A stretch of 64,000 nucleotides of DNA from contig NC_079886.1 in NCBI RefSeq assembly GCF_029227915.1, forward strand, positions 11,863,501 through 11,927,500. The letters run 5' to 3'. Every line of letters starts with the position of its first letter. Positions within the stretch are counted from its first letter, which is position 1. The notes under the pieces are model-generated. The model was not told where the DNA came from. It searched no databases and was given only the letters and a program-made list of their open reading frames with translations. The stretch comes from Hydractinia symbiolongicarpus. Its lineage: Eukaryota; Cnidaria; Hydrozoa; Anthoathecata; Hydractiniidae. The translations under genes were made by a program, and so were the position numbers. Positions 13,236 to 56,151 of this stretch are shown piece by piece.

Positions 13236-13237
13236 TC

Positions 13238-13990: not shown

Positions 13991-13993
13991 TTT

Positions 13994-14728: not shown

Positions 14729-14782
14729 CCACCTTGTTTTTAATTCGGTTGGTATTTCTTCATCCCAGTCTATTTTGGATTT

Positions 14783-16170: not shown

Positions 16171-16260
16171 AGTGTTAAGATCTGGTACAACCCATGCTTT
16201 TTCGATTCTGATTTCTTCTTTTAGATTGGTAGGGTGAACATTAAATGATACGATTTTTGA

Positions 16261-16875
16261 TTAAAACGTCTGTGAATTCGATAGGATCGTCGATACTCTC
16301 AACGGTTGCTCCTTCCCACCTAATCCGAGTTTCCGCGCTTTTTCTTCGCAAATTAAGGTGCTATCTGATCCACTATCTAAAATAGCGTTGGTTGTTACTG
16401 ATTTGTTGTTATGAGTTACGGTAACCGGGTTAACTTGAAGATAGGTGTCAGTTGTGGTACGAGATCGAGTGATTCTTGCCTCAGGTTCATTCTTTGTATC
16501 TTCATTTTCATTTTGTTGTGGCGGTCCTAAATGCAGCAGGGTGTGGTGACGTTTTCCACATTTATCTTCTCGACACCTCTTCTTAGATTTACATTCTTTT
16601 ATTTTGTGAGAAGGTGAAAGACAATTGAAGCAAAGTCCCTTTTCTAAAACGAACTTCCTACGATCTGCCACCGGTTTTGATTCGAATTCTCTGCACTTAA
16701 AAACAAAATGATTTTCTGAACAAATCCAACACTTCGTACTGCGTTCACTACCTGCACCTGTTGCAAATGTTCTCACTCTTCTCTCATCCTTTCCATTTTT
16801 AATCTTATTCTGTTCCTGATCTGCGATTAATTTGCTATTGGATTGAATTGCTCTAATAACTTCCCACTTAACCAT
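16261..16875 (-). pseudogene. BEL/Pao zinc knuckles and start of protease
   Basis: This picks up gag after the frameshift at about 16870 (VIRAIQSNSKLIADQEQ). It contains a degenerate and a canonical CCHC-type knuckle (CWICSENHFVFKC and CFNCLSPSHKIKEC) and a third Cys/His group ending in HHTLLHL. These bind the element's RNA. From about 16400 the aspartic protease begins, with the active-site motif AILDSGSDSTLI, where Asp-Ser-Gly is catalytic. The frame stops at 16261 while protease-like sequence continues in another frame (KAWVVPDLN near 16200). The open frame begins with an ATG, but this lies inside the polyprotein and is not a natural start. Confidence 0.85.
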
Positions 16876-18464
16876 TTCTCAAAGTCAATCAAATTAATGC
16901 TATTCTCACTCGTAATTTTGCCTTTCGAAAATTTGTAAAACTGATTGCGAAAGTGGTGAGGTAATCTAGCTACAGCCTTTGCTAAATTCTCAGTTGAATT
17001 AATAGCAGATTTGTAGCCCATGGAGATTAGCCAAGTATTATTAGAATTAAGAAGTTGCTGATATCGACGGAGAGATGTTCTGTCGCGAGGTGGTATTTGA
17101 GGAAGATCAAGAACGTTTTTTAATTTAAAGTATGATACAACAACAGGATTACCGAAGTCACGTTTCAATGCTTTTAATGCAGATGCGTAAAATATGCCAC
17201 TTGCACCAATCGATAACACCGTCTTCTTAGCCTCACCGTCCAATACACTAATCAACCTCTCCATCCTTGTGTTATCGTCAAAGGAAACCTTCAGGTGTAC
17301 TCTAGATTTAAAGTTTTCCACAAACTCTGGCCATTTATTAGGTGAACCATCGAACCTAAACAGATCAATAACTGGTAGATTCCTTGATTCATACTCCCAA
17401 CGAAGTACCCTAGCGGTAGTTATCGCATTTGCATCTTCTATAATGGTTTCTTGTCCTTCAATAAGATCGTCAATAAATTTATCAATCGGTTGATAACGAG
17501 ATTTATTGATATTTTTCGGATTATTGAAGACATTGTTTTCGACATCTTTTAGTTCTGAACGGTTCGTTTGAGATTTATCCTGATTTAAACATGGAAGTAA
17601 TTTAGTCTGATCTTTATATGAATGTTGATTGACTGACGAAGATGCATCAGACGGTATATAATCGATGTTGAAGAAGTGACGGCTTTTTATTGAATGGTTT
17701 GATGAAGACGAAGAATGTGGTTTAGAATAATATTTGTTGATGTCACTAGGAATAACTAAAGTAGTGTCGTTTTTAGGATGTTGTAGAGATGATACGTCTA
17801 TCTGAGATGAAATATTTCTCTCTTCTCTGTCAATTCTGCTATCTAATATTCGAAGGTTTTCGGTGGTTGGTACATAATAAGACGAGCTTTTCCTCTCTCT
17901 AAATATTAATGGCTGTGTAATTTGCGATCTAACGGACATATCTTCTGAAGCAACATGTTCTTCTATTATACTCTCTCTTAATCTGGCGATTTCAGCTTTA
18001 TCTTTCACTACGTTCAACCTTTCTACTATTTCGTCTCTCTCTAGCATTTTCTTTTGCTCCAATATTTTAAGCTCTATCTCGCTCTTCCGTTCTAATAAAT
18101 TTAATTCCCTTTTTAGCTTTTCCTCCGCAAGTTTCGCCTGTAACTGAGCCTCAGCAGATTCAGTCTTCCTCTGTAGGAGCAAGTTTAAAGATGATGTCGA
18201 TTGGGACTTACTATGATGGCTTTTTTGACTGCTGCGAGAAGAGTGATGATATAAACTGGAATGCCTGGAAGATCTAAAATGATTTGAAGGTGGTCGATGC
18301 GACGACGAGCGGTGACGTGAGTCCTGACTTATGGCATTATCAATTTCTAATTTATCATCAGCGTTAGAATGTTTAAAATATTTCTCACAAGGATTGATAT
18401 ACTTGGCATGCAGGTGGGGAAGAGATTCTATATGAAAGCGCTGTGTATGTGAAAATTAAAAATA
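16827..18464 (-). pseudogene. BEL/Pao gag: coiled coil plus capsid-like core
   Basis: Gag builds the virus-like particle. The minus-strand frame is open from about 18464 without an ATG, and the in-frame codon at 18182 is TTG, so the true start is lost or upstream. Ser/His-rich sequence (to about 18190) leads into a 70-residue coiled coil of Glu/Lys/Leu heptads (18180-17960). A Ser/Asn-rich linker follows, then the conserved core from about 17370: LPVIDLFRFDGSPNKWPEF, then MERLISVLDGEAKKTV and a FGNPVVVSYFKLK block. These match the DUF1759 region of BEL/Pao gag. The frame ends in LSGKLLEQF because of a one-base change in a G run near 16870; homology continues in the next frame. Confidence 0.85.
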
Positions 18465-18465
18465 T

Positions 18466-19610
18466 TTTGTATAAGAGTTTGGGATGGTCGTGTATTTATT
18501 CTTTGAATGTTAGTATTGCAGACGGTAATGAAGATAAAATTAGCATGAACTATCCCATACAGGTTGTTTTGCACTTAGGGAAAAAATCGGGGTGAATTGA
18601 AAATGTATGGGAATAAGTTACTGCCTACGAGAAGTCTGCGGAGGCCGCGTGACAACTTAGGGAGTAGGGAGCGAGGATACTTGGTAAGAAAAATTATGCT
18701 GGATCTCCTGGTTATAGTCATGAAATAAAATCACGATCTTAGTCGATGATTGAGCTATGAAGGTCAAAATTTTAGGTGCCTTGGTGAATTTGGTGCCTTT
18801 TTCACAAGTTTGCTTTATAATTGGAATTCATGTTGTTACAAATTCGATGGATACCTTTAGTGATCAGTTTTGTAGGTGGTTACATGATGTTTTCTACCCT
18901 ACTGTTGCTCGTTTACTCTATTTGGCAGAAAATTTGTGAGGAAGGCAAAGGCGTTTATTTGAATGCTTATTTGTTAGCTGGACTATATATATTTAGCAGT
19001 ATAGCACTTTTATGCAGCATAGCTGGTGTCATTGAGTATGGATGACACGAATACAAAATGCTTTATTCTATTGCAACCCTTTGTTTACAATGATCCACAT
19101 GCTTTGCTTACAAGCGTCTCTATAATTTTAGCCCCGTCTGTCTGTCTCTACGCAAAATGGTACCACTGTAACTAGACACACAAAATGCGATGTATAAAGG
19201 ACGGACAAACATGTGGATTTATCCACTGGCCACTGAATAGTCTTGCTGCATCAGACCGTGTAGCGCGCGTGCGGCATGTTTATAATAATAACTGTATTCT
19301 ATCTGTCTGTCCGCAAAAGAATGTTGAAAATAGAGATACTCGTGAGTACTGTTTAGTTAAAAAGAAATTTACTGGTTATCTTTCTTCCTTCTTTATAGGT
19401 TCAACCTTAGACGAAATATTCCTACCACATCAATAAGCTTCTTACCAACACCACTCAAGATAGCGGTGTCGGCAATATGTACCCCCGAATAAGCCGTTAA
19501 CCATGATTTGATCAACTAACATTATGCTACCTCGACTCAATCGCAATAAGCTTCAAGCGCTATCAATATACCGTACGCCGATTGGTAAACTAGAAAAGAA
19601 ATTCAGTTGG
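18466..19610. other. No recognised gene
   Basis: There are two short hydrophobic open frames (18757-18939 and 18821-19045) with no known motif. Near 18672 lies a sequence shared with the hairpin at 9131-9193. No 5' LTR of the BEL/Pao element could be seen. Confidence 0.5.
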
Positions 19611-20115
19611 TGAGCTAGCGGAGAATATTGGTTAATGAACTAGCGGAGAAAATATTGGTTGGTAAACTAGAGGAGAATATTAGTTGGTGAACTAGAGAAG
19701 AATATTGATTAGTGAACTAGAGGAGAATACTGATTTGTGAACTAGAGAAAAATATTGGCTGGTGAACTAGAGATAAGAATATTAGATGGTGAAGTAGAGA
19801 AAAATATTGATTGATGAACTAGCAGACAATATTGGTTGATGAACTAGCAGACAATATTGGTTGGTGAACTAGCAGACAATATTGGTTGGTGAACTAGAGG
19901 AGAATACTGGTTGGTGAACTAGCAGACAATATTGGTTGGTGAACTAGAGGAGAATACTGGTTGGTGAACTAGCAGACAATATTGGTTGGTGAACTAGAGG
20001 AGAATACTGGTTGGTGAACTAGCAGACAATATTGGTTGGTGAACTAGAGGAGAATACTGGTTGGTGAACTAGCAGACAATATTGGTTGGTGAAATAGAGA
20101 AGAATATTGGTTAAT
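19611..20115. repeat. 25-bp minisatellite, ~20 units with 50-bp higher order
   Basis: Twenty units of about 25 bp start with GAACTAG and end with TATTGGTTGGT or close variants. Units 1-8 are diverged. From about 19811 two variants, GAACTAGCAGACAATATT and GAACTAGAGGAGAATACT, alternate in nearly perfect 50-bp pairs for four cycles. This pattern indicates recent amplification of a dimer at the right side of an older array. Confidence 0.95.
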
Positions 20116-22260
20116 GAACTAAAAAAAAAAATTTATAAAGGACTTTTTCACTTAATATATCGCTTCTGAAAATTAAATCCTATCCGTAACATAAAAAATC
20201 TAGGCCATAAAAATTTAACAAGAGTCGACATAAAAAAGTATTCAATTGTCCCAAACGAGTACTGACACTTGTGTCTTCTGTGTATAGGAAATTCGAGTAG
20301 CATTTTGGTAGCAGGTCTTTCACTTTATAAAAATTAAGAAAAAAGTAACAAGAAGCTAAAACACACTGTATCAAATTGGTGCATCCTTTGACCCCACAAT
20401 ACAGGACTCGATGACGTTAAGACCGGGTCTGTGAAATACACGTTTATCATCTTTTACAAAATTAGGAATTTCAGTTTTAATAATTCAATCATGTAACAAC
20501 GAAAAAATATAACTCGTTCATATTTTGGTCAGCAAAGCTTCTTCTTTTTTAAAAAAGGTAACCTCGCTTTCAGAATCCTTCTCGTATAAGCACGGTGAGC
20601 TCCAGAAATAGAGTCACTCAAAATGGCATGTTTTTGAAAAGCGCCGAAGATTTGTTGAGTTAGTGAGGAAAAAATACATAAATTGGTAAGTTGACATGAT
20701 TATCTTACAAAATGGCCCATAAGTTCGCACATAGATACAGACACAAATTATGGGGACATTGCTCGTAAACCGGATAAATAACCTTATTTTACAGTTTAAA
20801 ATTATTTTCAAAGAAAATGTATTATGGGCCAGATAAATTTGTCCCACAGTGCAGAGGGTCCCCATAAGTCGTATACACAGTCTCCGTATTATCATAGAGA
20901 TTAAAATGCTTTCGCCGTAACATTTATGCCACCAAAATAGCACTTTCCGATGTATGATTTAGGTCTTTTCATTTTTAAAAAGTCAGAAAGCTATTTTGTG
21001 ATCAGAATAGCTTCAGGAAAATGTCACTTTTTGCATAATTAATTGTGTGAAAGAAATTTAAGTGCGTCGGGAATATGGGGCGAAAATTTCTTCTGTTACG
21101 GTACCATTGTTCAAGATTATAAGTTTTCGAATGACAAAAATTTACAAAATTAAATTGCGTTATTTTTTATCTTCGAATATTAAAGGGAGCGGTAACAAAG
21201 TGAAATTTTGCTCACACATGTAGTGTAAAAACACTAATCAGGCCCCAGCACTTGAAAGCTGGAGGAAAAAGGCGATTGATTACTACGTGAAGTAAGCCAA
21301 GGGTGGTCGTTGTAATACCTAGTAAGCAAGGTTGCTAGCTTCATTTGTTTCTTCTAAAACAACCAAGGATGTTTAATAAAAAGGCAAGCGCTTGCTAAAT
21401 GCTACCAAGTGCTACAACAACTTCATCCCCAGGAATGAAGTTGTTGTAGCACTTGTAGCCCTTTTGATATTGAGACAGAAAAAATTTGTTAAGATTGATT
21501 TTCACGAAGCGAAATGTATCAATGTTGTGTAGTTTTGTTTGTCTTGATTTTGCTGCAAAATAACCACTTCGTCGTAAAGTATAAACAGTTCTTACGTTTT
21601 AGCGGCAAAAACATTTCGCTGTAAAAACTCAAGCAATCAAAACGCCATCTTCAGGGTTCATTATTACGAAAAAACACACAATAATAAGTTACTGACTTGT
21701 TTTTAATACCCAAAAGAGTGCTAACATTCACTATTTAGTGCATTTCAATTCATTACTTGAAATCCCCTTTAGTCGTCAAGTAAGGACAAAGATAGAGCTA
21801 CTATTGGCAATTAAGATTTATCTTCCGTTACACAGATGGTCAAGACTGCAAATATTTATATGAATGATAGAAATAGGTTGATGTTTACCCTATTCTATCA
21901 GAGGTTTAAATAACCCTATTACAACCGCTGTCCACCGATGGACAGAGCGCAATGCTTTTTTGGAAGCTTTGGAGCGTTTGTTTTCAAGCGATTTCTGCAT
22001 AAAGAAAAGATTGAAAGATTTTTTATGAAAGAATTAGATAATAAGAGATGCATTACCTAAATCCTGACGAATGAACATTTATGTAAAAATATGACAGCTA
22101 CTCATCTAAGATTCAAGGTGGAACTGCCGGAAAATACGCTTAGTTGTAAATGAAATATCTCGACCTATCTTGTTATATTCCAAACATTGGGCTGATAAGA
22201 TCTTAATGTATCTGGAAAATACAGGAAAATAATATTAAAATGATCATAAAAGCTTGGTTG
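20116..22260. other. No recognised gene; one hairpin at 21401-21459
   Basis: Mostly AT-rich sequence with motif-free open frames. At 21401-21459 a palindrome with GTGCTACAACAACTTCAT arms and a loop of about 9 bp is present; it may be a small foldback element. Confidence 0.5.
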
Positions 22261-24540: not shown

Positions 24541-25899
24541 TAGAAAAAACAAATGGTTAGGTGATGATACTTCGTTTACAACAATGGTGAAGATAAAGAT
24601 GGTGGTATAGTGAAAATTTTAGCAACAATGTGATTTGGGAAAATACCAGAAGATTTTGGTTGTAATCCAGAAAATAACTAAGAACTTACAAAAGAATACA
24701 AATTGAATAGGGTGACTATCTTTTTTCTTATAAATATGACATGGAACTGTTGTATTCTGAATTGAGAGCCTTGTTGGATAGAAAGGCGTTATCAGTACAA
24801 GCTAAGATTGTTACCCATTGAAAACATCGATTGACAAGAGAGGCAACAGACAATTACTAGGAACGCGACAACTAGTGTTAAGTTACAATAGCCTGTCAGT
24901 TGTTATTCGTATTTGGAATTTTACCAGAATGGGTAAACGGTAGCAAATTATTGGATGGCGAAAGAGGTATAAACTATAGTCTGTTTTCAACATAGATGTT
25001 TTGATTTTCCGTGTCACTAATACCTTTTTAAGATCTAAGGCATAAAATTCCACTCTTTTAATCCTTCATAAACCATTGTTGCACCTCTCAGAGATACTAT
25101 CCTAAATGCCTTAGAGGCTGTTATGCCCCACTTTGTAATAATTGCCCCACTTTGTAATATCTGCCCCACTTTGTAATACCTGCCCCACTTTGTAATTCAT
25201 CGTTGCCCCACTTTGTAATTTTCGGAGCTGCCCCACTTTGTAATAATGTCTTGCCCCACTTTGAAACTTTCGATTTTTCGCATGCTGACCAATATGCAAT
25301 TTTTATGACGTCATCTTTTGTTATGTTATCGGTGTTCTGGATGCTCTCTCTTGTTATTTGCAATGAAACGCGTATCACACGTTAGTAGAATGATTACTTT
25401 TAATTTTTATTAGCAAGCATTGTAACATTACATGCACTGGCTTTCTTTTTGTGAAAAAATGTACTAGCTGAAGTGTTTTCATACCATAACATAACAGAAA
25501 TATAATACAAACAGTAGGTAATGTGTTTTTTGCATAACGTAACATAAGAAATAAACTTGTAGCAATCTTAACATAACATGCAGACTAATCAGTTCGAGGA
25601 TTTCAACCTCAAACTGTCACCTCGGGTATATCTACAAATCAAACTCAGGTAAAAAAGCACTACTTCTAAATAGAATGAAAGAAAGATAAAAAATGTGAAC
25701 AAAGATACGACAATTTCTACCTGCGTGATTTATTGGAAGCAATTTACTTGTCAAAAAACATTAGAACATAAACGAAGACTATCGAAAATAAAAGCTGGAA
25801 TGAATAAAAGACTAAAAATCACTTCTTCGATTTCCACACAATGTTTTCTATTATATACCAACCATAGGCCAGCAGTTGTAAATTTAGCCATGCCGTGTT

Positions 25900-26750: not shown

Positions 26751-27360
26751 AACCTCTCTATAACCTACTACAATACAACTAACTTTATCTACTAAAATGC
26801 TACTAACTTTATCAAAACTCACAACAGCTTGATGATTATTATTCAGAAGTTATTTCATTGTTTTGACACCTTGATAATAATGGTGATGCGTGTCGATGCA
26901 GAACTCATGAGAGAATGCTAGCTGGTGATGATAAAATTTTCGAAAATACAAATACAAAACAACATAACACTTTTACTCATTTTTTACTTTTTTACTTTTA
27001 CTTGTTTTCTGAGTTTTCTTTTTTCCAAAAAAAAATCCAACTGCAGCTATAATATTTTAATATACTTTATCACGTGTACAATGTACCTGCAAGCATATAT
27101 TCACTTTATCATTTTTACTAACTTCCAATTTGAGTAGCCTTTCAGTGTGCTTCGTTTTGAATTTATATCGCGCAACCTCCTTCTAAAGCTATTGATAAAT
27201 AAAATAAACCAAAAATTACAAAGTGGGGCAAGACATTATTACAAAGTGGGGCAGCTCCGAAAATTACAAAGTGGGGCAACGATGAATTACAAAGTGGGGC
27301 AGGTATTACAAAGTGGGGCAAGATAATTACAAAGTGGGCCAGGTATTACAAAGTGGGGCA

Positions 27361-28797
27361 AGATAATTGCAAATATCGCGCAATAGTTTTACCAAAGAAA
27401 TGAAAACTTTGCATTAGCTGCCTCAGTTTACCAGCCCTTTGCCAAAAATGTATGAAATGGAATTTATGTAGGCAACTGCGGCAACATTAGCAAAAAAATG
27501 CACCACATTGTTTTTCCTCAAGTTTATCTGATATTATACATAATCGAAGTGGCAACGTTAGGTGGAATACGAAATTTCGTCAAACTCAAAACAAAATAAT
27601 CGATTGAGCATTGTTACCACCATGTTGGTCCTCACTCATTCTCAATTTGACACGCTCTATGTTGCAAGAGTATGGAAATCGTCCATACAATCGATTACTG
27701 ATTCACACCCTGTCAACATGGTTGGACAGCAGAATACTGAATTGAGTGGGTGGATGAGATTTTCCTAGCAGAGCTTGAATATCTCGATATAAGTGAAACA
27801 TATTACATATGCTGAAAGTGATGAGAAAGACGATTCGTATATATGGTACCATAACGATTATACCTATCACGTTCTTGTTTATATTCTTTTTTTTATATAT
27901 ATATACTAAAGGTTTTAGATTTGTCTGAGTGTTAAATGAGTAGCTTCCTATGTTGTATACTATACCAAACCCTTTCTTGTTTTATAGATTGAGATACACT
28001 ATTTAAAGAATCTCAATTGATACCATAATGCTATTTTTACCCCTTGGAAATAACTACTACATCTTGTTTTCGGTACGCATAACAGTCATCAGCACGATCA
28101 AAAAACAAATGAAGTCTAAAACTCGTATATCAGAACGATTTGTATATTAAAAAATACATGTTAATTACGAAGGTATTGTCAAAAAATATGAGAACTTATC
28201 CTGACAACCAAATTTTGGCACGGCCTTAGACTTTGATAAGTCCCAATACATAGTTTGGAACAAATTAGAAGCCTATTAGATACAGTGGAACAACACAATA
28301 TGTATATAATTTTAACAAATTTTAATAACCTCCCGGATTTGAGCCCCTGTTTCTGGTGACCTTGATAGAGCAAAAACCATCCATTTTCTTCATGTACAGA
28401 GATTGGCCTCTTAGTTCCTTGGTTATTACGCACGTCTATAGGCAACTTTAGGAACTCCTCAAACTTATGCGGGGAAAAATTATTATGGCCTTATTTTTGA
28501 GGTTTCGACCTCTATTCGAACAATTTAATCCCGCAAAATTATACTTTTTAGAGCAAATCGCAAAAGTAAGTCCGCCAAAAAAAGACAAGTTTTAAATCAC
28601 TAAAATAAGTTTTGCATTTTATAAAAATAACTATTTATAGCGCAAAATTTTTAAAAAAGTTTTTGAAGACAATGGTATTTCGTTGCGCAGAAACACTTTT
28701 TCGTGTTCTCACTTTTCTCAGGAAATATTAAAACTGCAATGTTAACTTTTTTTCTTAGTGAGAGCAACAAATAGCAGAATTAATTCCGTATTATGCC
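27361..28797. other. No recognised gene
   Basis: Short motif-free frames only (for example 27562-27768 and 28179-28445 on opposite strands). AT-rich sequence with CGCAAAA-rich stretches near 28540-28650 may be an old MITE. Confidence 0.45.
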
Positions 28798-29943: not shown

Positions 29944-30400
29944 TTATGATACGCAACTTAAATTATACATAAAGACTTTTGTCCGTGATTTATTTGCGAC
30001 GTACCTTAACACACAGACAACAAGAAGGTCGCTGAAAAACACACTCCATATATGGTCATCATTCTCAGATACGGGTTCTTGCAAAAACATATTACGAATA
30101 AGCCTACCATCTTTGTTATCGTAAAAACCAATCATATACCTGTTGACCATATTCGGCAGTTTGATGACGTTTGTATAAAGTACAGTCAAAATATCCAAAC
30201 ATTCGTCATAATCAATAGAATGGATAATTTCCGAATGTAGGTACTCAGCTTCAATGTAGTTTACTGTTTTAACAGAACAACCATATCTGGAGCATTTCGG
30301 ATTCTCCTCTAAAGATGATAGCGTAGATGTGAATGTAATCTCAAATAAAGTTGTCATTTCATTCTTCCCGTTGTAAATTTCAGAACCGATCTTCAAGAAA
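29944..30400 (-). CDS. DCAF17: DCAF17, exon 2 (C-terminal)
   Basis: This is the last exon of the DCAF17 homologue. The acceptor is the pyrimidine-rich TGATTTTGCTTTAGAG ending at 30401. Joined to the exon 1 end in phase 2, the frame passes without a break from ...HDKI into TFLKIGSEI. The exon carries SIDYDECLDILTVLY, LIRNMFLQEPV and VFMYNLS, which line up with the vertebrate C-terminal blocks (IVDYEDELDLL and VFSCYVYQM). It ends with TAA at 29944-29946. A candidate polyadenylation signal ATTAAA lies at 29803-29798 (minus strand). There is no frameshift. DCAF17 is a substrate-receptor candidate of the DDB1-CUL4 ubiquitin ligase. Confidence 0.85.
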
Positions 30401-40235: not shown

Positions 40236-42204
40236 TACCAATATATCCTGTCGAAAAAATTTAATTCCGCGCGGTCTTTTAAGACTTCTCGTAGGCCAAC
40301 CTCATACCAGGGGCTTTTACCTTTTTGACATCAAGGCCGGCGGCGAAAAAACCCCTAGTTGTAATGCGATTGGTTTACATCCGACATTGAACGATACGAA
40401 GATTTCTGACTATGAAAAATGTTAAAAAAGATTGAATAAAAAAAACGGTGAGCCAAACAGTAAATCAGATGTTATTTTGGCAGATTTCCATTGTTGACAT
40501 TTTGAATGAAAATAAAGGTTCATTCTAAAGCTTTTTAAAAAACATGACTTGGTAATTTAGCTGGATGAGAAAAGACATGTAGCTAGCTAGCTATCTTGCT
40601 AAGCTATTACTACATAAAAATAAATCTTTTCTTTTATTCATTTTTACTTAAAAAATCAAGTGCTCGTCCAAAAGTGTAGTTTTAGTCAGATCACCTAAAT
40701 GCATTTTCAAATTTTAAGCAACTGTTAACAAGTTTAAAATTTTGTTGGTCTGTCATTAGCTAGACACATCACGCTTGTGCAAAATTTGACCACAACAGTC
40801 ACACCTAACTAGCTAGAAAAATGTCGCGTTTCGAAACAAAATTTATGTCTGAAAACATCACAAAAAGGATTTAAAACCGAGAACGTACGAACTAAAGAAA
40901 AAGAAAAAAAAATTAGCTAGGGGCCATTCAATAATGATGTAACGCTTGAGGTTGGGATAATGATCATTTTTGTTTCGCACTGTTACGAAAATTTAGGGGT
41001 GGGGTTGGGTGGAAGGGCAGAGGTATTTTGTTATGTAACAAATAATTTTTATGGGTAAGTGGTATTAAATTTGTAACGATGCATTATAACATAGAGATAA
41101 TATCTCTATGATTATAAGGTAAAAATGTCTTAGGTCAGGCATTAAATTGCTAAGGCCTTTCTTGATCACAAGATTCTTAGCTGGTTGTATTTAGCACCTA
41201 GCACCTTTATTTTACCAACACAGTGTTTTATCATGTTAAAGCACATTATATTGCTGTTATTGCTATATTGCTTCTGGAAAATATTTCGCCATAGTTCAAC
41301 TGGGAATGTTGCCACCTGATGGAAAGGAAAGGGTTGTAGCGTAGCATGTATCCTAACAAAATTAGCTCTATCTAATCACACGTTAATAAATAATGCTTCT
41401 TAAAAGATCTTATCACTATAAAATATAGTACAATAACTTGGTTTGAAATAAAACGTTCTAAATTTAAGCGTCCAAAAACATCAACAACCAAAATACATCG
41501 CGAAGAACGAGGACTCAATCAAGTTGTTTTACTAGCCGCAGGAACAGTAACAAGGAGACAAATCATAAATTATTCATAGTACCAAATATACTAGTATAAA
41601 AAGCAGCTTATACCAGGATCTTGTTTAGCCGTCAAGCGCTAGCGGCTTTGACATAGGCAACAAACCCTAGGGACAAAGATGGGTAGAAATTTATTCCTAT
41701 GCATTTTCTATTCACCCAAAATGCAAAAAAACCTCTATCCGAATCTCTTCCCCACCTGCATGCCAAGTATATCAATCACTACTTCTCACACCATTGACTA
41801 AATTATCACAACTATTCAATTCTTCCAATCTAAATGACAAGTCCTTACAAGATCACAAAGCTATGGAATGTGAGGGCTCTGTAGTGTATAATTTGTTGAC
41901 ATTTTAATTTGTCTTGGTGTTATTTAGTTTCTTTATTTAATTAATTCACAGTTAATGACTGTATATGCCTGTATATGCTGTGAGTGATGTAAGTGTTGGT
42001 GAGATAAAATATGGCTGGACCAGTCGATTACATGGTAAATATATTGTGTTATTACATTGTAAAACTTCATATTGGAAATTATAGCAAATAACGTATATTT
42101 CTTGTCGTTCCTGTTCACAATATGGGGAAATTTGGGTATGTCGGGCCTCCTTCGTCAGCCTTTTAGGCAAGTAATGTGTTGATACAAGTGATTGTTGAAA
42201 CGTA
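40236..42204. other. No intact gene; small repeats
   Basis: Contains TAGCTAGC runs near 40580, a CATAGAGATAATATCTCTATG palindrome near 41092, and at 41744-41780 a 37-bp exact match to the BEL/Pao gag 5' end (18396-18432, opposite strand). Confidence 0.5.
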
Positions 42205-42690
42205 CCTGACGCTCAGGGCGTGTATACATGTCTTCACCATATTTTCTGACGCTCATTGAGGTGCGGCATCTCAATCAGCAGCACTTAAATAGGAAACATG
42301 CACCTGACGCTCAGGGATGTCGATGCACCTGACGCTAAGGGCATCTCAATAAAAATACCAGTAATTAGCATGTGCCTGACGCTCAGGACATGTCGATGCG
42401 CCTGACACTCAGGGCATCTCTAGTAGTCATCATGTGAATAGGAAACATGCACCTGACGCTCAGGATATGAATAAAAACATCATTATTCTCTAATACACAA
42501 CGGAAGAAAACACCATAATTAGCATGTGCCTAACGCTCAGGACATGTCGATGCATCTGACGCTCAGTGCATCTCATCTGTATCATGTACCCGACGCTCAG
42601 GGCATGAAGACGCCTATAATGCGTGTCCTGACGCTCAGGATACGCATTATATATTGGGGCATATCCTGACGCTCAGGATATGCATTTTGA
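42205..42690. repeat. Cluster of twelve CCTGACGCTCAGG hairpins
   Basis: Twelve units of CCTGA-CGC-TCAGG (some with one or two changes) occur at irregular spacing of 25-75 bp. Each core is flanked by arms that are complementary to each other but differ between units: GATGC/GCATC, CATGT/ACATG, GCATAT/ATATGC and, at 42617-42651, ATAATGCGTG/TACGCATTAT. The best unit is a 35-nt hairpin with a 16-bp stem and a CGC loop. No long open frame covers the cluster. Confidence 0.95.
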
Positions 42691-42749
42691 GCATATGACA
42701 AATCACGAAGGAGGCACCTTCATTCATACCCATTCCCCAAAAATTTTCC

Positions 42750-45162
42750 ATAAATAATCTACGCATACTGAACGTGTTGTATTTACTCATTCCAATAGAA
42801 ATACATTGTTTCTATCAAATTGTGGTATTATTCTGGAACCCAAAGCAATTAAATGGAGCTAAACTGCAAGTTTTGCTCATGTTAATTGTGGTGACAGAAG
42901 TACAGTTCTTTAGCATTGTGGTTAGTATATATTAGGTTTACCTAAGTCATTGAAAATATCATGTAGAACCTGGCACAGTGGGGGTGGTTTCTACATATAG
43001 ACCTGATCTTAAAGATTGCCAGAGACAGTAGTCTCACTTGCCTGTAAAGGAACTGGGCCCTACCCAGGCCTTGATTATTAATGGTTGCATATAAAAACCC
43101 AACACCCCACAGTGCACAAGTTCTTCAGATGCACCTTACAGTTTGCAGTTAGGCCTTGATTATTAATGGTTGTATATAAAAACCCAACACCCCACACTGC
43201 ACAAGTTCTTCAGATGTACCTTACAGCTTCCCACCAGCCCAGCCTTTTTTATAAATTTTTTATAAATGCAGTGAATCGAAATCGAATTATCATGGGCATC
43301 TCCAATGCAACTAAAGACAACTGCATCACAGCTGTTATGGGAGCGTGCTGCACAACACAACTAGACAAATTGCTTCTGCCCCAAGGTTTCCCTGGCATCA
43401 TTTTGGCAAATACTAATCACTCCAACTCGGCTCCTTCAACTTCCGCAACCTAACCCCAGTAACTTGATAACAATACGTCATAGCACCTTTATACTCACTA
43501 AAATCATTCCTAGCCTCTCGCAGAAGCAATCATCATCGCTATTCCAGTCGCCATTTCCTTAAAAACAAAAAAAATCCAATTTCTCCACCGACCAACAAAA
43601 CCAACGCTGTGACGTGATTATCCGATACATGGTTACTATTAATCTCAATATTAGTCTCCTCAATCCTTATAGGAACCCCCGCAAGCTTAGTACTAAAAAA
43701 CCCTTAACAACACCAAGCCTGACAATATCCCATGGCAACATATGACTCATAAGCCACAGAAAAATCAATTTTTTTTTCAGGCATATTTCAACAAACTCTC
43801 ACAGTTGGGTCTGTCCCATCTTATGACACAGTATTTAAATGCGCGAGAGTTCTTTGTCAATAGTTGGGCCTATCCCATATCTTATGACACACTTTCTAAA
43901 ACTGGAAAAGTCCTTTGTGTAGGGTCTGTCCCATCTGATGACACGGTTTTTAAAAGCGCGAGAGTCTTTTTCAATAGTTGGACGTGTATTAACTTAAGAC
44001 CAATTACATACATTTGTCCTAGGTTGGAGCGGGCCCGTCAATAGATTGACTATCAAAAAAAATACATAAAAAATGTTAATATGAAGTTAGATTTCTGTCT
44101 AGCTACCTTTAGTCAGGCACTTAGAATCATATGACAATTTCAAAATTATGTTTATATATTTGGAAAACAATCAAGAGCAATATACACGGCAGTCTGTCTG
44201 CTGAGTGTATGATAGAAATCCAAAAAAAAAACTCGCCGCACATATTTGTGACGTAAAATGCCGAGCTCGCTTGCCTCCGCAAGGTTATATACAAGACAAA
44301 TGCATCAAATATTACATCCAGAAAACTGTGCATCTAGAGTCACGTGACGAGGCCTTCTCCAGGGCTATGTTCGTCTCGCCGTCCCAAAAGCAGAAAACAG
44401 GCGCTAGAAACGAGGTTGAAAGCTATCACTAGAAATCAGTTAAGGCTCAGGTACACTTAAAAATTTTTTTCTTCGAAATATGTCTAAAACTAGTGTTTCA
44501 CGAGTGTTTTAAAAATTTTTTTTACTATTTCGAAATTAGTAGTCTTTCCGCATATTTAATCATGAATAAAGAGAAAAGTTGTATCCATGTCTACGACCGC
44601 TTCTTTTTTTTGAAAAAGAGTGGAATTAAAAAAAACAAGAAGCCCTGGGGGCTCTAAGAATTTCCGCTCGCTACCAAAATATTTGACAACAACCTACTAA
44701 TTCGTTGTGTTATCGTGCCAAACATTCGAAGGGGTTTGGTGCATGAACCTCTGAAGATAAAGCACGCAAGTGACATTATATCTTACAACAAACGCAAAAA
44801 AAAAGAAACGTGTTATAATAAACTCACATTTTAAAAGAAATTGCTAACAAAAATACAGCCTATCATTCATGGTTGAAAGTCTTGCGATTGAAACGTTTAT
44901 GGTCTTAAACGGCATTTAGTTGACAAAAAATCAATATTTTGATGTGACCATTATGTTCAACATACTTTTTTTATTAACTTTGCTAAATTTTGTTGTTAAT
45001 TCTTGGACCAATTTTGGCCTAAAAGGACATTTAAGGTGGCAAAAAAACAAAATTTTAATGTCACCATCATGTTCAGCATACTTTTTTTGTTAACTGTATC
45101 AAATTTTGTCAAAAATAAAGTAGTTTTAATTTTTCGACCAATTTTGGCCTAAAATGACATTT
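42750..45162. repeat. 2,413-bp tandem duplication, copy 1
   Basis: All positions I compared are identical to 45163-47575, including five open frames of 64-100 codons on both strands. Inside are an 82-bp direct repeat (43075-43215, with ATATAAAAACCCAACACCCC), three ~65-bp units with TCTGTCCCATCTTATGACAC (43802-43985) and a copy of the dispersed repeat seen at 2800-3110. None of the frames resembles a known protein. Confidence 0.95.
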
Positions 45163-47575
45163 ATAAATAATCTACGCATACTGAACGTGTTGTATTTACT
45201 CATTCCAATAGAAATACATTGTTTCTATCAAATTGTGGTATTATTCTGGAACCCAAAGCAATTAAATGGAGCTAAACTGCAAGTTTTGCTCATGTTAATT
45301 GTGGTGACAGAAGTACAGTTCTTTAGCATTGTGGTTAGTATATATTAGGTTTACCTAAGTCATTGAAAATATCATGTAGAACCTGGCACAGTGGGGGTGG
45401 TTTCTACATATAGACCTGATCTTAAAGATTGCCAGAGACAGTAGTCTCACTTGCCTGTAAAGGAACTGGGCCCTACCCAGGCCTTGATTATTAATGGTTG
45501 CATATAAAAACCCAACACCCCACAGTGCACAAGTTCTTCAGATGCACCTTACAGTTTGCAGTTAGGCCTTGATTATTAATGGTTGTATATAAAAACCCAA
45601 CACCCCACACTGCACAAGTTCTTCAGATGTACCTTACAGCTTCCCACCAGCCCAGCCTTTTTTATAAATTTTTTATAAATGCAGTGAATCGAAATCGAAT
45701 TATCATGGGCATCTCCAATGCAACTAAAGACAACTGCATCACAGCTGTTATGGGAGCGTGCTGCACAACACAACTAGACAAATTGCTTCTGCCCCAAGGT
45801 TTCCCTGGCATCATTTTGGCAAATACTAATCACTCCAACTCGGCTCCTTCAACTTCCGCAACCTAACCCCAGTAACTTGATAACAATACGTCATAGCACC
45901 TTTATACTCACTAAAATCATTCCTAGCCTCTCGCAGAAGCAATCATCATCGCTATTCCAGTCGCCATTTCCTTAAAAACAAAAAAAATCCAATTTCTCCA
46001 CCGACCAACAAAACCAACGCTGTGACGTGATTATCCGATACATGGTTACTATTAATCTCAATATTAGTCTCCTCAATCCTTATAGGAACCCCCGCAAGCT
46101 TAGTACTAAAAAACCCTTAACAACACCAAGCCTGACAATATCCCATGGCAACATATGACTCATAAGCCACAGAAAAATCAATTTTTTTTTCAGGCATATT
46201 TCAACAAACTCTCACAGTTGGGTCTGTCCCATCTTATGACACAGTATTTAAATGCGCGAGAGTTCTTTGTCAATAGTTGGGCCTATCCCATATCTTATGA
46301 CACACTTTCTAAAACTGGAAAAGTCCTTTGTGTAGGGTCTGTCCCATCTGATGACACGGTTTTTAAAAGCGCGAGAGTCTTTTTCAATAGTTGGACGTGT
46401 ATTAACTTAAGACCAATTACATACATTTGTCCTAGGTTGGAGCGGGCCCGTCAATAGATTGACTATCAAAAAAAATACATAAAAAATGTTAATATGAAGT
46501 TAGATTTCTGTCTAGCTACCTTTAGTCAGGCACTTAGAATCATATGACAATTTCAAAATTATGTTTATATATTTGGAAAACAATCAAGAGCAATATACAC
46601 GGCAGTCTGTCTGCTGAGTGTATGATAGAAATCCAAAAAAAAAACTCGCCGCACATATTTGTGACGTAAAATGCCGAGCTCGCTTGCCTCCGCAAGGTTA
46701 TATACAAGACAAATGCATCAAATATTACATCCAGAAAACTGTGCATCTAGAGTCACGTGACGAGGCCTTCTCCAGGGCTATGTTCGTCTCGCCGTCCCAA
46801 AAGCAGAAAACAGGCGCTAGAAACGAGGTTGAAAGCTATCACTAGAAATCAGTTAAGGCTCAGGTACACTTAAAAATTTTTTTCTTCGAAATATGTCTAA
46901 AACTAGTGTTTCACGAGTGTTTTAAAAATTTTTTTTACTATTTCGAAATTAGTAGTCTTTCCGCATATTTAATCATGAATAAAGAGAAAAGTTGTATCCA
47001 TGTCTACGACCGCTTCTTTTTTTTGAAAAAGAGTGGAATTAAAAAAAACAAGAAGCCCTGGGGGCTCTAAGAATTTCCGCTCGCTACCAAAATATTTGAC
47101 AACAACCTACTAATTCGTTGTGTTATCGTGCCAAACATTCGAAGGGGTTTGGTGCATGAACCTCTGAAGATAAAGCACGCAAGTGACATTATATCTTACA
47201 ACAAACGCAAAAAAAAAGAAACGTGTTATAATAAACTCACATTTTAAAAGAAATTGCTAACAAAAATACAGCCTATCATTCATGGTTGAAAGTCTTGCGA
47301 TTGAAACGTTTATGGTCTTAAACGGCATTTAGTTGACAAAAAATCAATATTTTGATGTGACCATTATGTTCAACATACTTTTTTTATTAACTTTGCTAAA
47401 TTTTGTTGTTAATTCTTGGACCAATTTTGGCCTAAAAGGACATTTAAGGTGGCAAAAAAACAAAATTTTAATGTCACCATCATGTTCAGCATACTTTTTT
47501 TGTTAACTGTATCAAATTTTGTCAAAAATAAAGTAGTTTTAATTTTTCGACCAATTTTGGCCTAAAATGACATTT
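45163..47575. repeat. 2,413-bp tandem duplication, copy 2
   Basis: Direct, head-to-tail copy of 42750-45162. The junction falls within a ~122-bp satellite: copy 1 stops after GGCCTAAAATGACATTT and copy 2 starts with ATAAATAATCTACGC, with only an A/AT microhomology. The identity suggests a very recent event or an assembly artefact. Confidence 0.95.
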
Positions 47576-47950
47576 ATGGTGGCAAATAACCAAAATTTTA
47601 ATGTCATCATCATGTTCAGCATACTTTTGTTGTTAACTGTACCAAATTTTGTCAAAAATAAAGTAGTTTTAATTTTTGGACCAATTTTGGCCTAAAATGA
47701 CATTTAGGTAACAAGAAATCAAAATTTTGGTGTCACCATTATGTTCAGCATACTTTATTTGTTAACTGTACCAAATTTTGTCAAAAATAAAGTAGTTTTA
47801 ATTTTTGGACCAATTTTGGCCTAAAATGACATTTAGGTAACAAGAAATCAAAAATTTGGTGTCACCATTATGTTCAGCATACTTTTTTTGTTAACTGTGC
47901 CAAATTTTGTCGAAAACAAATACGAATTTTGGCCTGAAACGTCATTTAGA
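47340..47950. repeat. ~122-bp satellite, about five units
   Basis: Units share CAATTTTGGCCTAAAATGAC, ATGTTCAGCATACTTT, TTGTTAACTGTACCAAATTT and TGTCAAAAATAAAGTAG. About two units are also present at the right end of duplication copy 1 (44930-45162). Confidence 0.9.
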
Positions 47951-49290: not shown

Positions 49291-50393
49291 GTTATTTTGT
49301 CATGTGCAACGGTTAGTATTCTTCCCGAATTATCAGCATGAAAAAACGCCCGCCTGTCGTCAATCGAGGCTTCGTTATCAGACCCACCCCACCAAGACGC
49401 AATCTTTTTTCCACTTGATACATCGCGTACGAAGAAACTGGTGCTTTTACTTTTGTTGATTAAACACGTCCAGGGATATCCACCAAAAGATAAACCATTC
49501 AGGTTCTTCCACTTTCCACCGTCGATTTTGTAACAAGGCGTAGGCACTGCACTCACTTTTATATTTACTGGCAAGCCGCAAGGAGGGACGCCGATTTCGC
49601 CTTTCACATTGGGTATACTGAAAATATCCAGGGTGTCCGTCGTATTCAAGCATTCGCCGATGGCAAAATCTCTCACACAATATGCCTTGATAACCTTATC
49701 TAAATCGTAAAACCGAAACGATGAATTTAAAGACAATACCAAAAGTCCACAAGTTACATACGCATCTGTTAATTTACCAAACATAGTCTCTGTTACCGCA
49801 ATTATTCCAACAAATCGTAACGGCGCAACAAGAAAAATACCAATAAAAAATACAATGTCACCGTTACGCGTCGCGGGGAAGCGTTTCGACCTGGTAACGA
49901 TACGTTCGAACTCTCTATCGTAGTATAAACGATCAAATTTATATTTATTGGACAGGAAAACCTTCTTTGATTAGTTCCACGTTTCTTTCTGCACCAGATA
50001 CTTAATTATATAAGAGTCCGACGTCAGAGCGTACAAACACTCTCTATAACATTCGTCAACCAATTTCTTTTCCTCGTGTAAATCAGTTACAGGACTTTGG
50101 TAGCGTACCATGTCTTTAATCCGCCATTTTGAATTAGTCTCGTTTGTAGGTTTCGGCATGTTTGTTTTCATAAAATGCGGGACACCGTTGCAGTAACAAC
50201 CTTGGAACCAATATTTATAATTTGATATGTACAAGTTTCCATCGTACTGCAGTGCTGGCTCGTTATGACCTGACCAACAAGTTTTATATTCTCTATAATT
50301 TGATTCGATTATGCTTCTACAGATACTTCTTCGCTTACACACACTATTTTGTTCTCTTTCCTGCAAAACCTGAATAATATTGTTCGACCTCAT
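49291..50393 (-). CDS. DCAF17: DCAF17, exon 1, with in-frame stop at codon 141
   Basis: The first in-frame ATG is at 50393. The upstream frame stays open to a TGA near 50445, and the TTG at 50417 is not a likely start. The exon holds YDGNLYISNYKYWFQG near residue 50, YALTSDSYIIKYL before residue 141, and beyond it KVFLSNKYKFDRLYYD, MFGKLTDAYVTCGLLVLS, VPPCGLPVNIKV, LSFGGYPWTCLINK and FFHADNSGRILTV, in the same order as vertebrate DCAF17. It ends at a good donor, GTAAGTGGG (49290). Codon 141 (49973-49971) is TAA, although similarity continues on both sides in the same frame. So the locus is a recent pseudogene, a null allele or carries a base error. Exons 1 and 2 total 519 codons plus stop. 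Confidence 0.85.
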
Positions 50394-51030
50394 GCCACGT
50401 AAAAAGTTAGAAACCAATGTATCTTGTGCGACATCTCTCCCGATATTTCATATTTGATGGAGGTTAACTAAACATAAATCATATAACTAGCACACATTTT
50501 TTATTTCCAACTATTTTTTTATTTTTGGTTTAAAGTTAACTGAGAAGTTACGAAGTGTAGTATTCAAAAGTTTGTTAGCATGATCAAGTCTTAACATTCA
50601 CGTTTATATTTTCGTAGTTTGTTATTAAGAAATAACTTATTGGCAAATTGGTTATTATAGGTTGTTCGTTGTTATACCTTTTATATAATTTTCATAAACG
50701 CAATCCACCACTAAAGCGTAGTACAAACGTTTGTCATGGTTAGAAATTAATTAACTCTCACAATTACACTGAATCCATACCCCACAACATAAATTTATAA
50801 TTTTACCATACTTACAATAAAGGTGGTTACCATGAGATTTTCAGACCAGACGAAATTTCATGACCTTTTCCATGACCGCTGGAATGATAATGGCTTGTGG
50901 CCACACTGTCTTAGATTCAAATCTTAACTCTGCTTCGCATTTGTAAATCTGCGTAATAAATGTTTATAATGCTGCAAATCAATTCTGTTTTATAGAGATC
51001 CTAATTGCAGGAATGTTCTACTTATGATCA
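50394..51030. other. Upstream region of DCAF17
   Basis: AT-rich, with no clear promoter motif. The likely transcription start lies here, but I cannot place it. Confidence 0.35.
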
Positions 51031-52452: not shown

Positions 52453-54859
52453 TTCCATCAGAGAAGGGGCCTGCTAAGAAAAGGTTAATTTTTGGAGCTT
52501 TACCTGAGTTAAACTTGCCGAAGAAAAGCTGTGAAGTTCAATCAACTGATAAAAGAAAACCTCCAGCTGAAAGACTTCTAACAACTGCAAAGAAAGTTGC
52601 TAGTAACGATTACTACTACGAATCATATCAACAGTTATGTGATAGACTTGTAAAGTTGAAAACTTTAGCTCATTGGAAAATTGATATTGACATCTATAAA
52701 ACTGTTATGAAAATATATGATGCCCAGTTTGTTATCCCGAAGTTTGAGATTCAAATTGATGGTAGTATGGGATTTTCTATAGCTGTGTATGGTTGGTTTT
52801 TACCAGAGCATCATCAAATTTATACAGAAAACAAAAGATGCATTCGCAATGTTAATATTTTAGATTTAGCGAACCATGTTGAAAAGGCTAAAATTTGCAT
52901 TGGAGTACCTGATAATTCAGGTGGACTGTTGTCCCATGCAATTCCAATATTTACCGACCCACATATTGATGACAAACCATATAAATGCAAACAGTTTAAC
53001 CGCACTCTTGATTGCTTTTTGTTGTGTGCAAGTGATGTATGTTATACATGTTCAAATTTTATCAAAGCACAGGAAAAATCTGCACAGGCTAAAAGTAGGA
53101 GGTTAGCTGAACCTGCAAAAGACAAAGCACCAGTTTCTTTTACATCACCACTGAGACTGAAGTTGAAACTTCAAAATCAACGATTGAGATGTCAACAGTT
53201 AGAAAGTCAAATTAAGGACATGCAGTCTTCTCTTGAAAAAGCTAGTGTTCATGTCAATCAAGATATGAGTGATGATTTTATTAACATATTTAGTGGAGCC
53301 ACTCCAGACCAAGTGACCCATTTATGAATCTATTCTGGCAGCAGCAACAGAAGCTTTTTACAGCATCAAAGTCAGGCCGCAAATTCCATCCAATGATAAT
53401 ACGGTTTTGCTTGTCATTGGCAGCAAAGTCACCGTCCTGTTATGAAGAGCTTCGCAATAGTGGTGTTTTAGTGCTTCCAAGTCAACGTACCTTAAGAGAC
53501 TACCGCAATTACATCACACCAAATTCAGGATTTAATCACAAAGTTATACAAGAATTAATTCGACAAACTAACGATTATTTTGATGTAGAGCGATACGTTG
53601 TCATTCTTTTTGACGAAATGAAAATACGAGCTGACTTGGTTTTCAATAAAACGTCTGGAGAATTAATCGGCTTTACAGATTTGGGGGATCCTGTGTGGAA
53701 CTTCAGTCAGTTAGAAAGAACAACCTTGCCACACATGTGTTAGCATTTTTGTTAAGAGGACTTTGCACCAACCTAAAGTTTTGTTTTGGCTTTTTTACCA
53801 CAAAAAATGTTATTTCAACCCAAATTATGTCTTTGTTTTGGGAAGCAGTTTTTCTTCTGGAGAAAACATGCAATTTATGGGTCATAGCAACCACTTCGGA
53901 TGGGGCATCTGCTAATCGAAGTTTTTACCGTATGCACAAACAAATTGATGGCGGTTGTGATACTGATGTTTGTTATCGTACAATTAATATTTGGGTTCCA
54001 CAAAGATTTATATACTTCATATCTGATGCACCACATCTCATAAGACAGCCAGAAACTGTCTACATCACTCAGCATACACCAATGATCGTAAAAGTACCCG
54101 CCTTATGTGGAATGATAATTTGATGTTGTTATGGGAACATATTTCAAGAGTTTATTATATGGATTCCCAAAATGAGTTAAAGATTTTGCCGAAAATTCAC
54201 ATGGAACATGTCAAGCTTACCCCACACTCATTAATGCGTGTAAATTTGGCTGCACAGGTACTAAGCTCGTCCATGGCTATTGCGCTCCATCATGTTGGTG
54301 GTCACGATTTCAGTGCCACTGCTATGTTTTGTCAAATGCTTGATAGCTTTTTTGATTGTTTGAATGTCAGAAGCATATCAGAACACCGAAACAAAAGAAA
54401 ACCAAATCTTGCTCCTTATACATCATGCAATGATACCAGATTTCAATGGTTAATAGATGAATTTTTAGCCTATTTTGCAGCTTGGAAAGAGAGTATTTTA
54501 AACCGACAAGGTGTTTTCCTCTGGATGATCGTAACAAAATGTTTATTTCCTGGCAAACATACGAAGGCCTAAAAATAACCACATATTCCATAATTGAAGT
54601 GACAAAATTTTTGTTAAGTGAAGGAATGGAATATGTCCTAACAGAACGTTTTTGTCAGGATACCATAAAGGAGTATTTTGGAAATCAACGCAAGTTTGGA
54701 CGACGTTGCGATAATCCTAATGTCCGGGAATTTGGGTACAATGACAATACCATTAGAATACAAAGAAGTGTTTCTTGTGATAGTGGAAATACAAAAGGAC
54801 GTTATGACCATACTAAAAATTGGGTTAATGTTACAGATGAAAAATTACAGAAGCGATAG
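52453..54859 (+). pseudogene. P-element-like (THAP9-type) transposase body
   Basis: After the acceptor at 52452 the protein continues VPSEKGPAKKRLIFGALPEL. A central region and a coiled coil (LKLKLQNQRLRCQQLESQI) precede the catalytic part: SGVLVLPSQRTLRDYRNYI, ILFDEMKIRADLVFNKTSG (first catalytic Asp), IATTSDGASANRSFYRMH (second Asp) and YFISDAPHLIR. The later part has [36 protein letters not shown] and [15 protein letters not shown], which are hallmark P/THAP9 blocks. Frames change at about 53315, 53700, 54110 and 54500, so no functional enzyme is made. The decay is light, since each segment is long and clear. Insertion normally generates 8-bp duplications in P elements. Confidence 0.85.
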
Positions 54860-54897
54860 TTATATTATTATATATGTGCAGAATTTTTAGTCAATTT

Positions 54898-56151
54898 CTA
54901 ACCCATATTTTCGTTTTGTTTAGAGCACGACTGCTTGATACCTTTTCGCAAGCCTTTAGATTTTGAAGTAAATTGTTCTTTTTTTTTATATTCTTCAAGC
55001 AACTGTTTCGCTTTTGAATATGATCGTACTCTAACATAGAGTGATATAATACTGAACAGTGTGTCTTTTGCTACGTCACTATCAATTTCAGCCTCACTGC
55101 TGTTTAAAAGAGTTTCGCAAGAGGTTATTATGGTGGAATTTGCTAATGCTTCTTTTAAAATTTGTTCTATATCTATATTTTTAATTCCAGCACTTGATGT
55201 GTGAGTTCTAAAATAAGTCTCTACAACAGTCAGGATATCTTCAGCTGGTGGTGAAATTTTCCACAATCCTCCTCGATTTATTTTATCAAAATAAGACTCA
55301 ACACTGTCATTTTCGTTACATCGTCCTGCTAAAAGGAATGATATTGCCATTTGACTATTTTTGGTGTTCCAAGTGCTGGAGTTTTTGATTTTTTTATACA
55401 GCTTTTTAAACACGTATCCGCCAATGTATATAAGACCATGTCGCTCATTCTGGGAAAGTACAAATGGTGTTTCAATAATGGAATTGGCAGCATTATTATT
55501 GTTTAACTTCTTTCTCTGTGCGATTAATTTATCTACAAGCTTTGTCAAAACTAAGGTTGATGCATCACGGCTCAGTCCTTCAAAATACATTGGTGCTTTT
55601 ATAACAATATCAGAGTACATATTGCCGTATAATTTTTCCATATTACCAGTTTTGTTAAACTTTTGAAATGTTGGAGATACCATAGTATATAAGTCACTAT
55701 TTACACTATCATTGTTTATTGTAAAGTTTTTTAATTCCGTTTTAATCGATGGAGGATAACACATGTTTTCAGAAGCAGTGTTTTTAATTTCTTGTAACAA
55801 GTGCAATAAAATATCCTGGCTTCTACTTCAACTGTCGTACTTTTATTATGACTGGTCGTTCTATGTCTCTTCAGTCCACCTTTACTTTTACATTTCTTGG
55901 GACAATCTGGACATGAAAATACTCCAGCTTCAACCTGTAAAAAAATAGGCTTTATTAATACTGAATATTGACGGTCTTGCTAGCTAGCTAGCTGCAACTT
56001 TAAAATTGCAATTTTACTGAAAAATAGGATATACACCACTAACATTTTTGGCAGTATCAATGAGATCTCCCTCAAACTGTTCATCAGCCTCCAGACATGC
56101 CAAAACAGCTTCGAAGTCGTCTTCAAATAAAAAATCAGAACTGGCAGCCAT
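54898..56151 (-). pseudogene. C2H2 zinc-finger partner gene of the P-like element
   Basis: Two exons on the minus strand. Exon 1 (56151-56044) starts at ATG and encodes 36 acidic residues (ASSDFLFEDDFEAVLACLE), ending at donor GTTAGT. Exon 2 starts at 55934 after TTTTTTTACAG, in phase, with a C2H2 finger (FSCPDCPKKCKSKGGLKRH then TTSH). A one-base shift at about 55820-55850 separates the finger from a 300-residue frame (55806-54898) with LSQNERHGLIYIGGYVFKKL, MAISFLLAGR, RGGLWKISPPAEDIL and LYVRVRSYSKAKQLLEEY. Similar proteins occur, from memory, as uncharacterised genes in cnidarians. The role is unknown; location between the terminal repeats and a second convergent copy at 22.6-24.5 kb tie it to transposition or its control. 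Confidence 0.75.

Follow-up and report, generated by a model that had tools for sequence, protein, structure and literature searches.

A dispersed hairpin array in a Hydractinia DCAF17 intron lies in a tyrosine-recombinase retrotransposon with split direct repeats and may act as a fold in cis

We find that an array of twelve hairpins, located in a 64,000-nucleotide stretch of the Hydractinia symbiolongicarpus genome (the window), almost certainly forms the central part of repeat B in a tyrosine-recombinase (YR) retrotransposon that has the layout A1-[gag-RT-YR]-B1-A2-B2. To the reading that joins this identity with a role of the hairpins as a cis-acting folded element, we assign a probability of about 0.8. 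The functional part taken by itself, namely that the hairpins are maintained as a selected fold acting in cis, is close to an even call on the sequence comparisons given below. The membership of the array in a YR retrotransposon had been overlooked in the preliminary description of this DNA.

Results

The window contains twelve hairpins with a constant core

The core search confirms the twelve hairpins with the core CCTGA-CGC-TCAGG that had been described earlier. Eleven cores with at most two mismatches from CCTGACGCTCAGG lie at 42205-42677 of the window, where 0.24 are expected in a shuffled window, and a twelfth, at 42245, has three mismatches. No further core with at most two mismatches was found in the window beyond 42205-42677. 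The arms flanking the cores were also said to be complementary within each unit. This holds for 8 of the 12 units, in which at least four of five arm pairs are Watson-Crick, and the other four are weaker: the units with cores at 42205 and 42452 have three arm pairs and one wobble each, that at 42245 has two pairs, and that at 42303 has one. When the right arms are redealt among the 12 units, a mean of 4.1 units are paired and 28 of 5,000 deals reach 8; random places in the window, given the same arm-pair score, yield a mean of 0.5 and a maximum of 4 (2,000 trials).

The preliminary description missed a 1-nt bulge 5' of the core, which 6 of the 8 paired units need; the continuous (unbulged) units are those at 42627 and 42665. 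The long stem placed at 42617-42651 is real (Table 1). Folded as DNA, the array stretch exceeds 100 of 100 shuffles (z −6.25), and as RNA it exceeds 100 of 100 on both strands (z −6.75 and −5.16). A search of the whole window against Rfam returned 0 matches at the gathering score.

Table 1. Positions of the element copy in the window, of the complete C8 copy and of the loci of a probably non-autonomous subfamily
Feature	Position	Strand	Basis or remark
Last YR codons and TAG stop (41882-41884)	41847-41884	+	homology to the C5 and C11 copies starts here
Repeat B1: entry block, array, tail ending CTGGAACCCAAAGCAATTAA	42134-42852	+	block mapping
B1 entry block	42134-42200	+	block mapping
Hairpin array, 12 units	42199-42686	+	core search, arm pairing
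Core starts	42205, 42245, 42303, 42328, 42375, 42401, 42452, 42529, 42555, 42589, 42627, 42665
Longest hairpin unit	42615-42651	+	17-nt arms 42615-42631/42635-42651, 94% complementary, no bulge
B1 tail	42674-42852	+	block mapping
Repeat A2, 299 bp, abutting the end of B1	42853-43151	+	94% identity to C10 copy A
Terminal hairpin of A	42853-42881	+	arms changed yet complementary in sister families
Remnant of the block between A2 and B2 in C8	43267-43407	+	block mapping; no B2 array after it
Duplicated B tail end (2,413-bp tandem duplication)	45163-45265	+	block mapping
Duplicated A repeat	45266-45564	+
Duplicated remnant of the post-A block	45680-45820	+
C8 copy, A1 (coordinates of its region)	3829-4127
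C8 copy, B1	7894-8804
C8 copy, A2	8805-9103
C8 copy, B2	9434-10344
Subfamily locus	C10:437967-441642
Subfamily locus	C12:11379047-11382723
Subfamily locus	C12:17137607-17143930
Subfamily locus	C12:24399018-24402481
Subfamily locus	C2:15163500-15169000
Subfamily locus	C8:2026279-2029734

The window holds a truncated copy of the element within a DCAF17 intron

Comparison with other copies shows the window to hold a truncated copy of the element, made up of the YR end, B1 with the array, and A2, inside the DCAF17 intron. Upstream of the equivalent of position 41847, the C5 and C11 copies continue as a YR frame. The limits of B1 in the window were set from the C8 copy, and the start of A is sharp in other loci, supporting the boundary of A2. 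Within A2, an 85-bp tandem pair at 43066-43226 (96% alike) repeats part of A.

The location in a DCAF17 intron, proposed earlier, is borne out, as DCAF17 matches flank the array on both sides, on the minus strand: the frame at 49287-49784 matches above the Pfam cut-off, and the matches at 49971-50417 and 29944-30396 are below it. No homologues were found in the DCAF17 exon search. The recent duplication reported next to the array is also present, as a 2,413-bp tandem duplication within 42750-47577 with 100% identical copies, followed by 129-bp tandem repeats to 47920; it copied the B tail and A2 and left the array out. This duplication is separate from the array, and is either a recent event or an assembly artefact.

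Coding copies point to a YR retrotransposon with split direct repeats

The H. symbiolongicarpus assembly (480.9 Mb, 76 contigs) contains 820 exact cores and 0 matches to a reversed pattern used as a control, and the core places are clustered among the 100 listed. A DNA search of the assembly with 42110-42770 gave at least 74 matches (40 of 197 candidates scored). The unit sample used below comprises 41 merged regions (141 kb), including that of the window; since these regions derive from the core places at the head of the list and from the strongest DNA matches, the sample leans to well-kept arrays. Element copies have sharp ends, ATGGAGCTAAACTGC on the left and CTGGAACCCAAAGCAATTAA on the right, and at several loci there is an upstream module ending in a long frame.

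The layout is seen in the C8 copy, the one complete copy examined, in which A1 equals A2 at 299 of 299 positions and B1 matches B2 at 909 of 911. Both B1 and B2 carry the same array, with 19 cores of at most two mismatches in each. In the C5 copy, the array is preceded by an A repeat (298 bp, identical to the A of a short copy), RT (PF00078, E 3.3e-14), a zinc knuckle (0.0018, below cut-off) and the YR frame. The Pfam matches of the YR frame stay under the curated cut-offs (PF02899, E 0.0054; PF00589, E 0.15), and a profile of 30 YR members matches Cre recombinase (2.6e-6 for the whole sequence, with the best stretch in the N-terminal half). In the alignment of these 30 members, R178, H288 and Y322 are invariant and R291 is nearly so. 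With the RT frame running on to 319 and the YR frame beginning at 214, the two overlap and leave no space for an intervening methyltransferase. The 106-aa stretch after RT has no Pfam matches, and we take it to have the look of an RNase H. C5 is embedded in a 22-bp tandem repeat, and no target duplication was seen there. Altogether, we regard the assignment to a YR element with split direct repeats as secure, and the name "Ngaro-like" as one that rests on layout, not on a tree.

Other candidates were rejected. The inner inverted repeat GCCTCCTTCGT/ACGAAGGAGGC suggested a MITE, but its blocks fall within B, and a host structured RNA is at odds with the dispersal of the array together with the element. 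A DIRS1-like element, with inverted terminal repeats and an internal complementary region, does not fit the C8 copy, whose repeats are direct and split.

Short copies running from A to B number 13 among the 41 regions (863-1737 bp), and two of them share their flanks, so that they represent 12 insertions. The middle block, which lies between A2 and B2 in C8, is kept in 8 of the 13; the other 5 match A over ~275-300 bp and then continue without all or most of this block. Inspection of the 13 by eye revealed no obvious target duplication. Such short copies may have arisen by A1-A2 recombination, as solo LTRs do, or may have been mobilised in trans. Reversed hairpin units stand beside forward ones at four loci (three each in L010 and L012, one each in L015 and L018), which indicates that part of B is inverted there.

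Arms change between unit types and remain paired

The preliminary description would have been contradicted by an array that is unique and neither conserved nor transcribed, or by other copies whose arms fail to pair more often than chance. Instead, besides the many cores in the genome, the sample yielded 538 units, of which, with a 1-nt left bulge allowed, 334 pair at five of five arm positions and 420 at four or more. Of the 420 well-paired units, 388 have a purine (A or G) as the bulge. Common arms are CATGT/ACATG, GATGC/GCATC, CATAC/GTATG and CATGC/GCATG, and the continuous types have GCATAT/ATATGC.

To quantify covariation, we used the 187 distinct units. Their arms pair in 75% of cells, compared with 65% when redealt (maximum 67.5% in 500), and cells with a double change number 115, compared with 59 when redealt (maximum 78). 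Controls in which the arms are slid pair in 26-52% of cells, the 52% belonging to the +2 slide; the +3 slide gives 128 double-change cells, yet its pairing is just 35%. The double changes are mostly between ~4 unit types, and consequently independent compensatory events are few.

No signal of a preferred strand emerged. The wobble-strand test on the 187 distinct units gave 85 G-U and 68 A-C, and stem substitutions in 116 distinct variant units gave 48 and 40, without strand bias. Since strand bias is absent, selection at the RNA level is not singled out over DNA. The preliminary description had offered a structured RNA, a cruciform-forming binding array or a palindrome-amplifying process; selection for a fold finds some support, and these counts do not favour RNA.

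Units recur in blocks, of which some are 177 bp long and hold five hairpins and others measure 201 bp; growth of the array is in part tandem duplication of these blocks and not palindrome creation. When we aligned 31 of the 177-bp monomers (22 distinct, drawn from 14 loci), the per-site deviation came to 0.070 for spacers, 0.024 for arms, 0.0145 for the core stem, 0.024 for the loop and 0.118 for the bulge; the difference between arms and spacers has a p of 0.007 with columns permuted as if independent, and the search for units via their cores favours conservation of the core, not of the arms. In the 201-bp monomers (4 distinct), the spacers, at 0.006, are not above the stems (arm 0.000, core 0.015). 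Judged by eye, conservation across 30 aligned segments of the last part of B did not separate stems from spacers.

A subfamily that is probably non-autonomous retains the array

At six loci (Table 1), the hairpin monomer lies ahead of decayed YR pieces that never match YR residues 216-311; because of this missing stretch, the subfamily is probably non-autonomous. The monomer has five units in five loci and four recognised units in C12_11379. In 4 of the 6 loci, YR matches are also found upstream of the monomer, which places it inside the YR gene. The C8 copy of this subfamily is young, as judged from its near-identical A1/A2 and B1/B2 pairs, and retains 19 units in both B1 and B2. As read from the sequence, it probably moved in trans with both arrays retained.

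Sister families hold other repeats in the centre of B

A search of the genome with the YR gave 125 matches, of which 20 loci were taken. The four sister loci that were read and have a B frame (L063, L070, L073 and L075) all start like GGGGAAATTTGGGG, with a CGTCAGCC-like block following in three of them; L076, on reading, has no B frame. A loose match to the start of B was found in 17 of the 17 sister loci run. The terminal hairpin of A, with arms changed yet complementary, was found in 5 of 18 sister loci (L063, L067, L070, L073 and L074).

The centres of B in the sister families hold different repeats. Folding of the B centres covered the focal C5 copy (L061) and 17 sisters, which leaves out L062 and L076 of the 20 loci. 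The focal centre has z scores of −11.6 (+) and −7.8 (−), and the 17 sisters, many of which are near-copies, range from −0.5 to −2.8 (+) and from +0.1 to −3.4 (−). The A2 junction placed automatically in these runs was wrong for L061 and, judging from L070, for L068, L070-L072 and L077, so that values for the inner part of A2 are disregarded. Since the sister centres exceed their shuffles just slightly, elements of this kind do not generally require a dense array. A count of unbulged stems of at least 8, which misses bulged units and served only to show the A hairpin, gave 2 in L061 and was not clearly raised in most of the 20 loci.

At L073, L074 and L078, units chosen by eye have a GGAG/CTCC core with the outer arms AATCAC/GTGATT or CACTAC/GTAGTG. 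There are three units per locus (two identical), and 9 of 9 fold below all 100 mononucleotide shuffles. These units are a second, small case of a constant core with changed arms.

Discussion

A proposed selected fold and its alternatives

We propose that the hairpins would form a cis-acting folded element towards the 3' end of the element transcript or of its single-stranded cDNA, and that the fold would be kept since the element's Gag, RT or YR, or its replication, needs it. The recognised part may be the constant core, the CGC loop and the purine bulge, with arms that need merely to pair; the step from the fold to a bound protein is one that we infer. We favour a selected fold for two reasons: the bulge holds its position although the arms differ, and within the 177-bp monomers the arms are better preserved than the spacers. 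Retention of both arrays by the C8 copy of the probably non-autonomous subfamily also speaks for it. The earlier suggestion of selection for a folded structure is likewise supported by covariation across unit types, by the higher conservation of arms than of spacers and by the small parallel in a sister family. As a further and doubtful extension, the bulged hairpins of B1 and B2 could form a multivalent cis signal by which Gag, RT or YR finds its own RNA or cDNA. Cores would then be swapped between families (CCTGA-CGC-TCAGG in one, GGAG/CTCC in the other), as if signal and binding protein had co-evolved and kept the families apart.

The main rival of the selected fold is that the array is a by-product of mutation, not selection: B would be a tolerant spacer in which fold-back copying during reverse transcription or replication makes palindromes and slippage multiplies them. 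Unit number does turn over quickly relative to sequence, as three copies whose best aligned stretches are 98-99% identical carry 17, 18 and 22 units, and compensated change is seen in just 1 of 24 varying pairs of the aligned 177-bp monomers. The other repeats at the same place in sister families, the two continuous units at the array end, which resemble fold-back products, and the monomer that landed inside the YR gene of a subfamily also agree with this explanation. However, fold-back copying should erase bulges, whereas the 1-nt bulge is fixed in place across four arm types and is mostly a purine; in addition, mutation would have to account for arms that deviate less than the spacers of the same monomer. 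We consider a by-product possible, if somewhat unlikely.

It is quite improbable that the units are double-stranded DNA sites, that is, dyad-symmetric binding sites of the YR with an accessory or resolution role. The element does encode a Cre-like YR, the units are inverted repeats, and strand bias is absent. However, the one-sided extra base would shift the half-sites out of phase, and arms that vary with pairing kept are the opposite of what a sequence-reading protein demands.

The chance that the hairpins are central repeats of a rolling-circle element (Helentron/HINE), which was the first class considered, is next to nil: this class was given up once the upstream module turned out to code for YR and RT in copies with the same ends, and in C8 the head-to-tail joint connects B1 with A2 of split direct repeats. 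The resemblance lay in the terminal hairpin, the TTAATTG/CAATTAA asymmetric inverted repeat and the lack of a visible target duplication, together with head-to-tail joints and central repeats, as HINEs are characterised in the portions of PMC4067079 and PMC7492417 available to us. HINE/DINE-1 elements, which are non-autonomous Helentrons, are also alike in their short non-coding copies and in the variability of their central repeats; they are unlike in that the coding relatives in Hydractinia belong to the YR retrotransposons and not to the Rep/helicase elements. A paper reportedly deals with a Helitron subfamily in Hydractinia.

Relation to known YR elements

The split-direct-repeat layout is that of Ngaro-like elements, according to the available portions of PMC9210276 and PMC4157794. 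As far as the same portion of PMC9210276 describes the Xenopus Ngaro-like element DIRS-53_XT, it shares with the Hydractinia element the order A1-ORFs-B1-A2-B2, in which the YR precedes the inner pair, and Ngaro-like elements likewise have a gag-like frame, RT and YR, with no methyltransferase room between RT and YR. The two differ in the length of B, which is 152 bp in DIRS-53_XT, as given in that portion, and 911 bp in C8, owing to the hairpin array; C8 also has ~330 bp between A2 and B2, unlike DIRS-53_XT as described there. A further difference from Ngaro-like elements is that the ~250 bp between the YR stop and B1 in C5, the single copy to which this applies, leave no room for a hydrolase frame. 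PAT-like elements share split direct repeats and a YR with the Hydractinia element, but they belong to a methyltransferase-bearing group, and the Hydractinia element has no methyltransferase. A derived Pat1-like lineage without methyltransferase is mentioned in the part of PMC4157794 available to us, and kinship with PAT is possible from the sequence features.

In the open-licence literature, we found no published account of hairpin arrays in Ngaro split repeats, and in the main text of PMC11067881 neither DIRS nor Ngaro is mentioned. Understanding of YR retrotransposons is poor, and we came across little about cis signals within the split repeats of these elements. Hundreds of hairpins with differing yet pairing arms, together with the different core of a sister family in the same frame, offer a direct way to test the fold of B, for which the roles tested could be packaging, reverse transcription or recombination. 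They also advise caution, in that hairpin arrays scattered over an animal genome may represent fragments of YR elements and not host RNAs.

Other features of the window

Several other repeats and element-like frames are found in the window. The frames at 11-1511 resemble a Penelope-like element, with a weak match to RVT_1 (0.00096, below cut-off) at 366-1511. On the minus strand, we take the retroelement frames at 12588-18182 to resemble BEL/Pao, and 12588-13142 matches DUF5641 (PF18701, 2.1e-32). The frames at 52515-55806 have, as we assume, a resemblance to a P-element-type transposase; two pieces from them gave no Pfam matches at 0.001. Tandem repeats include a 25-bp repeat of ~21 copies at 19582-20121, and short repeats of TGCCCCACTTTGTAATAAC at 25124-25272 and 27206-27373, which are in inverted orientation ~2 kb apart.
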